DNA of 64,000 bases from Oscillospiraceae bacterium. Its GTDB lineage: Bacteria > Bacillota > Clostridia > Saccharofermentanales > Saccharofermentanaceae. Made by a program: the position numbers and the translations under genes. Location of the stretch: NCBI GenBank assembly GCA_902788505.1, contig CADAKH010000012.1, positions 1-64,000 of the forward strand, written 5' to 3'. Below, piece after piece: positions 13,633-48,833 of the stretch. How positions within the stretch are numbered: position 1 is the stretch's first letter; every line of letters starts with the position of its first letter. Under the pieces are notes generated by a model that had not been told where the DNA came from, did not search any database, and saw nothing but the letters and a program-made list of their open reading frames with translations.

Positions 13633-14781
13633 TTATCTTACAGCCTTTTCCTTGTAGAGTGCTTCATCTGCCTTGCTCAGAGCAGCCTGGAATCCCGCTA
13701 TGTCTCCTGAATATCCTGCATAACCTATGCAGGCCGTGAGTTCGTATTCTGCTCCGGATTCGTTATTCAGGCGGATAAGATTTTCTTTGATACTGCAGCA
13801 AAGATCCCTAACGAGTTGTTCATTCTCTGTTTTTGCGATAATGATGAATTCGTCGCCGCCATATCGTGCAATGAATGTTTTGATCGAACTTCCCGAGCAT
13901 GATATCTTCAGTGCATCTGCAGCTCTCTTCAGCGCAAAATCGCCTTCAACATGACCGTACTGATCGTTGATGTGCTTGAACTTATTCAGATCGATCATAA
14001 GCACATACCGGTCATGCCTGTCGGAGCTCTGCTTGGGGACATCACCTGCAATGTATTTTTTGAGCTGGGTCCTGTTATTGAGCTTGGTGAGCTCATCTAT
14101 CGATACCTGATCGTTTAATGAGGTGATGTAAACATAGAGCATCATGATCGTGCATCCGAAACAGAACATCGGGATAGTAAGCCAAAGAGTCTGTGCAATT
14201 CCGAATACAGAGAGAATGACAGGATAGACGGCACTTGCAAGATACGGAACCCTGACTGCGTAATTCTCCTGTTTGAAAGCCCTTTTAAATGACCTTACCG
14301 CACTTATGATGATGAATATGACAGGAACACTCAGGAAAAGAATATAGTAGGTCAGTGTGAGTGTACTGTCATCATTTAATACAGTCTTCGGGAAAAAGAC
14401 GAACAACACCACCATGATAAGTGCCGAAAGAACAACAGGCGAAAGGATACAGAGCCTTATCTTGAATCTCTTGATATATTTCTCACCCTGCGAAAGTTCG
14501 ACATATACAAACCAAAAACCAGTTAAGACACTTAATATTACCGCATTTAGGATATTGAACAGCGCAACAAAGAAATAGTTCTTCGGAAGATACCCGCCAA
14601 GGATCAGGGCCCAGCCTATGTCACTTAAGAAATACATGATATGGGCAAGGATGATATTGATGAAAATGACCTGCTTTGACTGATGGCCGACCGAGCGTAC
14701 TTCTCTTAGAAACATCATCAAAAAGATAATGATGCTTACTATATTTGCTTCAACATAAAACCAAGTATAATCCATGCTCAT
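13633..14781 (-). CDS. Membrane diguanylate cyclase (GGDEF)
   Basis: A 382-residue protein with seven or so N-terminal membrane helices (to about residue 215) followed by a GGDEF domain. The active-site loop is intact (RYGGDEF), with the upstream signature DELTKLNNRTQL and the metal/substrate segment DLNKFKHINDQYGHVEGD. It should make cyclic di-GMP at the membrane. The start is taken as ATG at 14781 although it has no Shine-Dalgarno; TATAAT ends 7 bases upstream, so the mRNA is probably leaderless. An in-frame TTG at 14805 lies upstream of that -10 and is less likely. A partner c-di-GMP hydrolase gene at 46727 is broken. Confidence 0.9.
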   Translation of the reverse strand: MSMDYTWFYVEANIVSIIIFLMMFLREVRSVGHQSKQVIFINIILAHIMYFLSDIGWALILGGYLPKNYFFVALFNILNAVILSVLTGFWFVYVELSQGEKYIKRFKIRLCILSPVVLSALIMVVLFVFFPKTVLNDDSTLTLTYYILFLSVPVIFIIISAVRSFKRAFKQENYAVRVPYLASAVYPVILSVFGIAQTLWLTIPMFCFGCTIMMLYVYITSLNDQVSIDELTKLNNRTQLKKYIAGDVPKQSSDRHDRYVLMIDLNKFKHINDQYGHVEGDFALKRAADALKISCSGSSIKTFIARYGGDEFIIIAKTENEQLVRDLCCSIKENLIRLNNESGAEYELTACIGYAGYSGDIAGFQAALSKADEALYKEKAVR

Positions 14782-42866: not shown

Positions 42867-43844
42867 TTAAGTCCAGCTGTTGAAGCGCACTCTTTCAGAC
42901 ACAGGTCTCTTGCTCGGTGCGTGGAAATCTTCTTCAGCCTTGCCGACAGGAAGAATGCATACAACTTCATATCCTTCGGGAACATTCAGTACAGCTGCGA
43001 TCTTGTCGCATATCCTGTCAACATCCGTAATATGACCTTCGTACCAGCAGCTCTGATATCCGAGTTCAACGATAGCAAGCAGCATGTTCTCGATGGCCGC
43101 AGAATAATCCTGGATCGCAAAGCATCTGTCACGGTAAGCATTTATCCTTTGTGTCAGTACGACGATCATTGCAGGGGCAGTCTGTGCAACAGGCGGATCG
43201 AGCTGTTCCTTAACTTTGGCAAGAATCTCCGGATCATTTACTATGATCACATCCGTTGTCTGCTTATTACAACCTGAAGGAGCATCGATGCCTGCCTTTG
43301 CGATAGTCATCAGATCCTTCTCCGGCACACTCTCCTGAAGGAATCTTCCGCGGTAACTGTGACGAGTCGCGATCGTGCCTACCGCGCTCTTAAGTGACAT
43401 AACATAGATCTGGCAGGGGTTTGCCTCATCCCAGTATTCCGGAAAAACCTCGAGTTCCTTGAAGCCCAAACTCTTATAAAACTCGTTGGTAATGTCGTAG
43501 TCTTCATACATACCGGATCTGACGGTCTTGACCTGAATGAATTCGTAGCCCTTCATGGATGCATAATCCTTTGCGGCAGCGAAAAGTCTTCTTCCGACGC
43601 CTTTTCTGTGACACTCCTTACGCACTCCCATTACAGCAAGTTCCATAGTCTCCCTGCCGGTCTCTTTCAGGCACAGGAAACCTTCTGTGACATCTCCGTC
43701 AACCGAAGCCCAAAAAGGCTGATCTGCCGACTCTTTAATATACTGTTCACGACTCGCCTCAACCTCGAACCACTCGGTAAGAGATTCGAGGATCTCACGT
43801 GATATCCTTCTTTTTTCATTTGCATCTTCTATAAATCTGATCAT
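42867..43844 (-). CDS. GNAT acetyltransferase - nitroreductase fusion
   Basis: A 325-residue protein with two enzymes in one chain. Residues 1-150 are a GNAT domain (VRKECHRKGVGRRLFAAAKD with the acetyl-CoA loop RKGVGR; FYKSLGFKELEVFP). Residues about 157-325 are a nitroreductase-like FMN domain (IATRHSYRGRFLQESVPEKD, APSGCNKQTTDVIIV, SAAIENMLLAIVELGYQSCW with cuts, and a C-terminal ILPVGKAEEDFHAPSKR). The frame is continuous and has no internal start, so it is a true fusion. The reaction pair is unknown; acetylation after nitro reduction to an amine would be a logical sequence. Confidence 0.88.
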   Translation of the reverse strand: MIRFIEDANEKRRISREILESLTEWFEVEASREQYIKESADQPFWASVDGDVTEGFLCLKETGRETMELAVMGVRKECHRKGVGRRLFAAAKDYASMKGYEFIQVKTVRSGMYEDYDITNEFYKSLGFKELEVFPEYWDEANPCQIYVMSLKSAVGTIATRHSYRGRFLQESVPEKDLMTIAKAGIDAPSGCNKQTTDVIIVNDPEILAKVKEQLDPPVAQTAPAMIVVLTQRINAYRDRCFAIQDYSAAIENMLLAIVELGYQSCWYEGHITDVDRICDKIAAVLNVPEGYEVVCILPVGKAEEDFHAPSKRPVSERVRFNSWT

Positions 43845-45977: not shown

Positions 45978-46610
45978 TTACTTAGCTTTTCTACGGAAAA
46001 ACAGTCTGCCGATGAGGCTGATAACGGGTCCGAGAAAGACCGCCATTAAGATTATCCCGATAACGGGCTTTCCGCCCGCCAGTGTTCCGACCGCAACAGC
46101 AGAGAAATCCCACGCCATGCGGATCAGCATTTTCGGGAACTTGGGAAATCTCGCTGCCACCTTCTCTGTAATGATTTTCGGAAGGGCATCGTACGGCGCC
46201 ACACCCATATCGGAATTGATATACACAGCTGCACTCACGATGAAGCACAACAGCGCCCCGATAAAGATCAGCCATCTTGATAGAGGATCAGTGAAATAAT
46301 GCGCAGGAATGATCTTTCCCCACAGCCAGTCGAAGAAATCCACATAATATCCGACCAGCACCATATTAAAGACCGTCCCGAACCCCAGGCTCGACCTGTC
46401 CCAGAATACAACAATTATGAGCATAACGGCATTGATAATGAGCTGCCAGGTACCAAAGAGCATCCCGATCCTCAGCGAGATCGCCTTGTTCATAAAAGAA
46501 CAAGGGTCAGTTCCAAGTCCGCACAGCATCAGGAATGACAGGAAAAATCCCATCCCCAGCACTGCCAGAAAACAAACCGCTATACGCTTAAAATCAAGTT
46601 TGAACTTCAT
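45978..46610 (-). CDS. YczE/YyaS-like membrane protein
   Basis: A 210-residue protein with five membrane helices of the YczE/YitT-like group. The repeat-type signatures are GLGTDPCSFMNKAIS, FGTWQLIINAVML and INSDMGVAPYDALPKIITEK (the GxDP/GxAPxDxL pair of this family). YczE in Bacillus influences surfactin production, but the family's action is unknown. Two GNAT-flanked genes surround it. GGAGAG precedes the ATG. Confidence 0.85.
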   Translation of the reverse strand: MKFKLDFKRIAVCFLAVLGMGFFLSFLMLCGLGTDPCSFMNKAISLRIGMLFGTWQLIINAVMLIIVVFWDRSSLGFGTVFNMVLVGYYVDFFDWLWGKIIPAHYFTDPLSRWLIFIGALLCFIVSAAVYINSDMGVAPYDALPKIITEKVAARFPKFPKMLIRMAWDFSAVAVGTLAGGKPVIGIILMAVFLGPVISLIGRLFFRRKAK

Positions 46611-46726
46611 TTATCTCTCCTCAACGGCTGCCACGCGCACCGCCGCATCTCCATCAGGGAAAGATTGTACTTCTAAATGTGCGTTACAGGAAGAGGGATA
46701 TTCGGAGACAGTTTTTGCGGAAAAAC

Positions 46727-47062
46727 TTACTTACGGCTATACCTTCTCAAAATGGCCTTAATGTCAGGAAGAGCATCCATGAAGACCTCAACGCATTTGG
46801 GATCGAACTGAGTGCCCTTGCGCTTTAAACCTCTGAGAATTACGCGCACATAGCCTGCTGTCTTCTGGATGTGATCGCCGGTATCCGAGTCACGGTTTTC
46901 CACCATGTCTGCCATGATTATGATGATTCCGTCCTGCATCTTCATGACGTTTTCGGAGAACTGGCGTATGTCACGGTTCTGCTCTGCCATGTCGGATTCC
47001 GTGAGTTTCGTGATCGGGTAAATGATATATGACTCTGACAAAGCCACAAATATCACGGTCAT
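46727..47062 (-). pseudogene. HD-GYP phosphodiesterase gutted by an in-frame deletion
   Basis: A 111-residue frame begins inside a membrane helix (VIFVALSESYIIYPITKLTE) and continues into the start of an HD-GYP domain: IIIIMADMVENRDSDTGDHI and KTAGYVRVILRGLKRKG. It then passes directly to TQFDPKCVEVFMDALPDIKA, the segment that normally closes the domain. The roughly 130 residues between, with the HD and GYP catalytic motifs, are missing, as is the N-terminal sensor. The frame is kept across the join. The product cannot hydrolyse cyclic di-GMP; it is a remnant. Confidence 0.8.
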
Positions 47063-47129
47063 GAAAATAGTAAATGCACCAAATTAATATTCACTTTACA
47101 AATGGACCGGGAATCAGTATTTTTACCGG

Positions 47130-47459
47130 TCAGGAAGCAGGTATTTCGATCGAATACTTTTCGCCGGCGTACTTGTCCCGGGCAGGTGACTCAAGGTACA
47201 GCATGATCTCGTCATCAGACACCCACTCGATATCCCATGAGACTTCTTCCATAAATCCTGCTCCCTTGTACTCGAAAATGCAGTCTTTCCCGTAATATAC
47301 GTCCGGACGGCACATGGCATCCGTCTTCACCGTGACCGTGAGATCACCTGACGGTGAACTGAAAGACTCCTGCTTTTCATATTGGAGATCAGTGCAACCG
47401 GCCGCGAAAATTGTTACACCCAAAACCGCTATGCTCAACACATTTTTGATATTTTTCAT
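47130..47459 (-). CDS. Small lipoprotein of unknown function
   Basis: A 109-residue lipoprotein. The start at 47459 has GCGGAG upstream and a signal peptide ending IFAAGC (Cys22). The mature part FSSPSGDLTVTVKTDAMCRP, and later SWDIEWVSDDEIMLYL, is an eight-stranded-type small beta domain pattern common in short Firmicutes lipoproteins. It lies 12 bases after a membrane-protein gene and probably shares promoter element F. Confidence 0.75.
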   Translation of the reverse strand: MKNIKNVLSIAVLGVTIFAAGCTDLQYEKQESFSSPSGDLTVTVKTDAMCRPDVYYGKDCIFEYKGAGFMEEVSWDIEWVSDDEIMLYLESPARDKYAGEKYSIEIPAS

Positions 47460-47471
47460 ATTCAACTCCGC

Positions 47472-47903
47472 TTATGCTGCAGCCATTCTGCGCTTTGCAT
47501 CGCGCTTTCTGATGCTGAAGAATCCGATAAAGCAGAAGACACCTGCCATAAGGATCATGAAATTGGCCAGCGGGAAATATCCCATCTCGGTCATGGTCCT
47601 GCCGGACGGATCAAACAGTTTTGCAACCAGGAAGATACCGTCAAAACAGAGTAAAAGTGCGGATAAAGAGGCGGTAACGATGGAAAGGATCAAGGTAAGC
47701 CGGCCTCTCGTGAAAGTCATAAAGATTGCAACAAGATTTATCAGATACATGGACCAGAAGACAGCGGTCAAGTCGCCCCATTCCATTTCAATCGAATCAA
47801 AATACATGGCGGTGCAGATTATCCTGTATCCGAGTGCGCCAAGTGTAATAACAAGTCCGATTATCTTCCAGACACTGAACAATCCGGGTTTATTATTGTT
47901 CAT
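47472..47903 (-). CDS. Four-helix membrane protein of unknown function
   Basis: A 143-residue protein with four membrane helices (near residues 12-32, 48-68, 74-96 and 108-130) and a basic C-terminus (RKRDAKRRM). The start is ATG at 47903 with AAGGAG 10 bases upstream; an in-frame TTG at 47927 lacks one. It is first in an operon with a lipoprotein gene and then the HD-GYP remnant. Promoter element F lies about 42 bases upstream. Confidence 0.78.
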   Translation of the reverse strand: MNNNKPGLFSVWKIIGLVITLGALGYRIICTAMYFDSIEMEWGDLTAVFWSMYLINLVAIFMTFTRGRLTLILSIVTASLSALLLCFDGIFLVAKLFDPSGRTMTEMGYFPLANFMILMAGVFCFIGFFSIRKRDAKRRMAAA

Positions 47904-47944
47904 TAATAAGTTCTCCTTGATACCCAAAAGGGTATTATTACACT

Positions 47945-47974
47945 CTATACAGAATCCGGTGCACTATTGTTGCA
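47945..47974 (-). promoter_or_regulatory. Shared promoter element F (GTGCAAC-N15-TCTGTATAG)
   Basis: On the minus strand GTGCAAC, exactly 15 bases and TCTGTATAG lie about 42 bases before the start at 47903. Confidence 0.62.
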
Positions 47975-48038
47975 CACAGTTTTCATCCGGAAAATATTAC
48001 CGGTAAAAATGTATTTCTTCACGGCAAACTGATAAATA

Positions 48039-48833
48039 TCACTTCCGTGCCAGCTCAAGATCCAATGTATCGCTGATTGTGATCTTGCCTCCGTGTCGGT
48101 TAATCGCATCTTCTATCTTAGTGAAGAACACTTTCCGGATACTTTCTTCGATCGCGATGTGATCCGAATATGTTCCGAGCAGCTGAATATATTCTTCCGC
48201 CGTGAAAACCCTTTCCCGGTGGAAAAGATGATACCTGATATCAGTGAATCCGTACTTTGAAGGTATCATCGATATCTCTTTTGCTTTTTCTTCCGTGAAC
48301 CACTCTTTCGTTCCGCTCCTGACACCATAGTATTTGTTGTAGTGCTCGTCGTATATTGCATCTATCTCACGTGCAAGTTCGGGATCGTTCCTGCTGTTTC
48401 TCGGTCTGTTGGCAAAGCGGGCAAATGCGCCCCCCTTTTTCAAGATCGAATACACTTTAGGATATCCGATCTCCTCAGGCACCCAGTGAAAAGCAGTCGC
48501 TGAGAATACAAGATCGCAGGACTCATCCGCGAGTCCGACGTCTTCAAACTTCCCCGTGATGACTTTAAACTTCGGATAATCCTTGAACTTATCTCTGAGG
48601 AGCTCCGAGAAATTCTCACCATATTCAACTGCCGTCACGGCACATCCAGTTTTGAGCACCGGGAGAGTCGCCTGACCGCTTCCGCTTCCGACTTCGACCG
48701 CACTGCTGTTCTCATCGATATGCACATAATCGAAAATTGCTTTGTACAATTCGTCAACATATCCCGGACGCATCCTGTCGTATAAAGACACTGCGCCGTC
48801 GAAAACAACTCCGAGTTCCTTCCTGTAATCCAT
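48039..48833 (-). CDS. Class I SAM-dependent methyltransferase
   Basis: A 264-residue methyltransferase of the UbiE/Methyltransf_11 type. Motif I is AVEVGSGSGQAT (from about residue 40), followed by AVTAVEYGENFSELLRDKF and CDLVFSATAFHWVPEE, where the AFHW motif is typical of this group. The C-terminal half holds a separate region (FHRERVFTAEEYIQLLGTYS). GAGGAG precedes the ATG. The substrate is unknown. It is 24 bases after the leucine-rich-repeat gene in the same direction. Confidence 0.9.
   Translation of the reverse strand: MDYRKELGVVFDGAVSLYDRMRPGYVDELYKAIFDYVHIDENSSAVEVGSGSGQATLPVLKTGCAVTAVEYGENFSELLRDKFKDYPKFKVITGKFEDVGLADESCDLVFSATAFHWVPEEIGYPKVYSILKKGGAFARFANRPRNSRNDPELAREIDAIYDEHYNKYYGVRSGTKEWFTEEKAKEISMIPSKYGFTDIRYHLFHRERVFTAEEYIQLLGTYSDHIAIEESIRKVFFTKIEDAINRHGGKITISDTLDLELARK

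Follow-up and report, generated by a model that had tools for sequence, protein, structure and literature searches.

Bacterial pseudogenes can form by deletion between short direct repeats. An open frame of 111 codons in the 64,000-nucleotide stretch of Oscillospiraceae DNA analyzed here (the window), situated where the earlier note on this DNA had placed it (Table 1), resembles such pseudogenes in the 6-8-base repeats seen at its junctions in some intact relatives, in its patchy presence and in its truncated 5' end. It differs from them in that its two internal deletions are both in frame and no frameshift has yet followed, largely because the repeats lie in the same codon phase. In relation to the HD-GYP c-di-GMP phosphodiesterases (Pfam HD_5), blocks B and C of this frame correspond to the start and the end of the domain in intact relatives; however, unlike these enzymes, it has neither the HD nor the GYP motif and does not match the HD_5 profile. 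From these sequence comparisons, we favor, with a probability of about 0.84, the reading that an accessory HD-GYP gene has here decayed into a young pseudogene, and further infer that the deletions are recent and that the remnant is not expressed. Literature searches on c-di-GMP in Saccharofermentans, on HD-GYP pseudogenes and on pseudogenes arising by deletion between short direct repeats returned nothing.

When its codons are aligned with those of intact HD-GYP genes from the genus, the remnant is co-linear with them in three separate blocks (A to C), the rest of the gene having been lost in three stretches. First, everything 5' of approximately 47083 is gone, amounting to about 225-230 codons of the frame in genome G004 with the sensor part and the start codon. 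Second, a 44-codon linker (132 bp), which in intact genes follows the second membrane helix, is missing between TES and DMAEQ (junction 46994/46993). This helix was named from the sequence rather than by a tool, and we term the part after it a linker because Pfam gave no HAMP match in G004. Of the 11 relatives in which block A could be aligned, 10 show a linker gap of 44 codons, and the 37 codons of G003 are explained by seven codons absent within its block B. Third, 139-140 codons (417-420 bp) of the HD-GYP core are missing at junction 46814/46813, the gap being 139 codons in 16 of 17 relatives and 140 in G004. In all five nearest intact relatives this lost core contains the HD metal-binding motif as HDVGK and the HHExxxGxGYP motif as HHERWDGxGYP; the leftover has neither and would not be expected to hydrolyze c-di-GMP. 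The remnant has thus lost parts that are present in intact relatives, as a pseudogene should. The alignment bears out the claims of the earlier note that the frame jumps from GLKRKG to TQFDPKCVEVF without loss of phase and that the sensor part is gone, and it places the core loss in frame at a lysine-glycine pair. That note had posited one core deletion: the core loss is real, but it is one of two internal deletions, the linker loss being absent from the note, and the 5' end is truncated as well.

Table 1. Positions in the window of the remnant, its blocks of homology, its junctions and the adjoining stretch.
Feature	Position	Strand	Basis or remark
HD-GYP gene remnant of 111 codons (probable pseudogene)	46727..47062	-	frame, relatives, block alignment
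Block A: end of second membrane helix up to TES	46994..47082	-	DNA identity to G004, block alignment
Block B: DMAEQ...KRKG, covering linker helix and beginning of HD-GYP domain	46814..46993	-	block alignment
Block C: TQFDPKCVEVF to stop, last part of protein	46727..46813	-	block alignment
Junction 1 (44-codon linker loss): GAATCCG, retained copy of presumed 7-base direct repeat	46993..46999	-	
Junction 2 (HD-GYP core loss): GCAAGGGC, retained copy of presumed 6-8-base repeat	46814..46821	-	
Stretch between lipoprotein stop and remnant	47083..47129	-	in-frame TAA at 47086-47084

These comparisons started from 18 loci chosen as intact relatives, reduced to 17 as the G090 locus gave no frame with the motifs; five of the 17 (G071, G015, G030, G012 and G014) are paralogs of greater length (724-736 codons), and in six (G077, G028, G071, G030, G012 and G014) block A was not alignable by a simple anchor. 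The nearest relative by protein in a search of 59 genomes is that of G004, which matches the remnant piecewise over residues 1-24 (88% identity), 14-96 (71%, E 3.1e-34) and 81-111 (77%, E 5.7e-12). By DNA, among 85 genus genomes including its own, the nearest are G072 (83% over 185 bases, E 4.9e-49), G006 (82%), G098 (80%), G077 (77%) and G004 (77%), all over 184-186 bases; the main DNA match of each of these five stops at the two joins or no more than a few bases away, and their open frames span 524-558 codons from stop to stop. G072 shows two LepA matches (98 and 91%) and an estimated contamination of 7%, so its HD-GYP gene may belong to a species other than that of its other contigs. For block A, G004 shows 80% DNA identity over 88 bases (query 49-136, i.e. 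window 47082-46995), with the homology beginning about 20 bases upstream of the remnant ATG. The intact G004 protein matches HD_5 (PF13487) with E 2.1e-34 (119 bits), the remnant not at all at E up to 1, and its descent from an HD-GYP gene is established by the block alignment and the above E-values. Further 5', the segment 47080-47129 looked by eye somewhat like the sensor's VEID region, and we considered it as a decayed piece of the sensor part. This was rejected: its local alignments to the 5' 690 bases of the five relatives were no better than those of shuffled sequences, of which 393 (G072), 458 (G006), 58 (G098), 440 (G077) and 488 (G004) out of 500 reached the observed score. The stretch from 47083 to 47129 accordingly bears no detectable resemblance to the sensor part that was lost.

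How the internal stretches were lost is suggested by the junctions. Intact G004 carries GAATCTG on both sides of junction 1 and AAAGGA on both sides of junction 2, at which G032 has AAAGGT and G007 has GCAAAGGC on both sides; the exact repeats thus measure 7 and 6 bases at the two junctions of G004, and 8 and 6 bases at junction 2 of G007 and G032, respectively. An exact repeat of at least 6 bases occurs at junction 1 in one of the 11 relatives whose block A was aligned (shorter in the other ten) and at junction 2 in three of 17 (shorter in 14); a near-repeat in G006, GCAAGGG, ends one base short of junction 2. Hence, the proposal of the earlier note that short repeats mediated the deletion is favored by direct repeats at the junctions of some intact relatives but weakened by their absence or shortness in most. 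We regard deletion between short repeats as the likely route of the internal losses, reconstructed from the relatives because the direct ancestor is not at hand. In such a course, an accessory gene whose product was a membrane sensor with two helices and an HD-GYP domain at its C-terminus would have lost its 5' half along with the start codon, and two internal stretches would have dropped out by deletion between short direct repeats, probably through slipped replication or RecA-independent recombination. The frame would have survived because both copies of each repeat code for identical residues (ES/ES and KG/KG) and share one codon phase.

This bears directly on whether the open frame signifies selection. 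Counting pairs of 7-base repeats at least 60 bases apart in five intact genes, we found 50-66% of them to be in phase (82/128 in G004, 95/156 in G006, 80/155 in G072, 75/149 in G098 and 94/142 in G077), such that two in-phase deletions are expected in approximately 25-44% of cases. As coding repeats are so often in phase, an open frame after two deletions is no sign of selection, and we rejected the in-frame state as an indicator of it. The remaining codons are clean, with no stop and no frameshift. Within the set used for pN/pS (G072, G006, G098, G077, G004, G108 and G028 only), the ratio is 0.075 between the remnant and G004 versus 0.074 for the intact pair G077-G004, and 0.19-0.21 from the remnant to G072, G006 and G098 as against 0.09-0.25 among those three. 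The remnant has six private residue changes, compared with 2 in G072, 4 in G006, 6 in G098 and 1 in G004, and its substitutions are mostly conservative. Since both measures resemble those of intact genes, most of the divergence probably arose while the gene was intact. Either the deletions are recent or the stub is still constrained, two situations that look indistinguishable here, and dN/dS is of no use for dating the loss as synonymous sites are near saturation. The locus thereby illustrates neatly that deletions between short repeats in coding sequence tend to preserve the frame, which makes an open frame weak evidence of function in a truncated gene.

The remnant lies in a slot (45978-48833) between a YczE-like gene and a methyltransferase (Pfam), which in the window holds a lipoprotein gene, a membrane gene and the remnant. 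This slot is variable: three sister species (G061, G027 and G107) have the flanking YczE-like gene and methyltransferase in unchanged order with a different gene between them, namely an alpha/beta-hydrolase-like frame (family called by eye) of 263-280 codons in approximately 1 kb, on the strand opposite the YczE-like gene. The window interval has no significant match to their slots (best blastn E 0.54, best tblastx E 0.052), and the HD-GYP gene looks to have been accessory. In terms of LepA identity (82 of 85 genomes matched), G061 and G027 are the closest genomes at 100%, followed by G100, G107 and G025 at 99%. Among the matches listed, the remnant has only weak short ones in G061, G027, G107 and G100, and none in G025. 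Together with the other frame in the slot, this leaves some room for the possibility, which we hold to be rather improbable, that the fragment entered the slot already truncated, through horizontal transfer or recombination. This scenario is compatible with the pseudogene reading, but transfer by itself leaves the two internal losses unexplained.

Much less probable, in our estimation, is that the short frame encodes a functional truncated protein, e.g. a membrane-anchored dimerization partner modulating other HD-GYP proteins. A defect-free frame, mostly conservative substitutions and a pN/pS like that of intact genes would accord with such a role, as would the predicted translation start: with what we take to be the letters of the ribosomal tail, pairing ahead of the ATG has an energy of -5.1, a value that falls among those of 42 long frames (median -6.55, quartiles -9.3 and -3.9, weakest 0.4), and an inner ATG at residue 50 has one of -6.0. 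However, the original start is gone in the alignment to intact relatives, the second membrane helix is cut, and the ATG at 47062 falls inside the former helix, at a position occupied by I, V, F or A in the 11 relatives aligned there. Moreover, the only likely pairing bases read by eye, GGTG, are 14 bases before the ATG, which we judge to be too far.

The distribution of the fusion argues against a functional protein as well. It is seen in none of the other 84 genus genomes among the matches listed (at most eight scored candidates per genome, with one genome per species in the collection), nor anywhere else among 171 scanned records, of which 125 have an intact core; its five rows in that scan (L001, L114, L124, L134 and the window) are one and the same place. 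The short form is accordingly not conserved between species in either set, and a conserved short protein of the same structure, which the earlier note had named as the case that would speak for a real truncated domain, was not found there. Three short matches among those listed cross a join beyond the repeat, and none is a fusion: one (G092:C47) falls within an unrelated gene, a frame of 650 codons; the second (G090:C29), which no long frame covers, shows no additional similarity to the seven intact HD-GYP genes compared and is a chance non-coding match; and the third (G100:C72) belongs to an HD-GYP-like frame of 461 codons, of which it forms the C-terminal end. The motif scan of the 171 records also yielded 16 rows with incomplete motifs, in which L037, L039, L042 and one L043 frame retain GYP and QFDP at full-length spacing, L022 retains HD and QFDP, and the remaining rows, L087 aside, are short or cut frames. 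An exact 26-base probe over junction 2 had no match in viral_contigs.

We give similarly little credence to the joins being assembly artefacts. The genome is indeed a draft (57 contigs, 87.5% complete), but several joins in one gene at 6-8-base repeats would not be expected, as assemblers generally use longer words, and a search of the genome against itself recovered a sole copy of the remnant plus three frames at 31-35% identity. Least likely, and very improbable in our view, is that the repeat-mediated deletions produced an expressed, catalytically dead, membrane-anchored HD-GYP stub that partners the remaining HD-GYP proteins with a dominant-negative effect.

The frame at 13633 is a real GGDEF protein. 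The genome has 36 GGDEF matches, 35 of them over the curated cut-off and some sharing one frame, along with 12 EAL and 6 HD_5 matches over their cut-offs, all six HD_5 frames having both the HDxGK and GYP motifs. These numbers give no reason to expect a one-to-one pairing for the lost hydrolase, and the suggestion that it balanced the GGDEF enzyme at 13633 finds no support. The loss carries little weight by itself: it has the look of ordinary decay of a single accessory gene for a c-di-GMP hydrolase, and the genome keeps others.

Some further observations concern the surroundings. A short inverted repeat (AGTTTTT...AAAAACT, 46710-46727), noted by eye, starts at the remnant stop and is perhaps an old terminator. 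A relative of the neighboring lipoprotein is present in G100, though in a different setting. Two YczE-like genes occur in the genome (window 45978-46610 and G000:C1:45191-45817), mutually 82% identical, and the window copy scores under the NCBIfam YczE cut-off. Finally, 42867-43844 is a single 325-codon frame that combines an acetyltransferase (GNAT) part with a nitroreductase part (Pfam).
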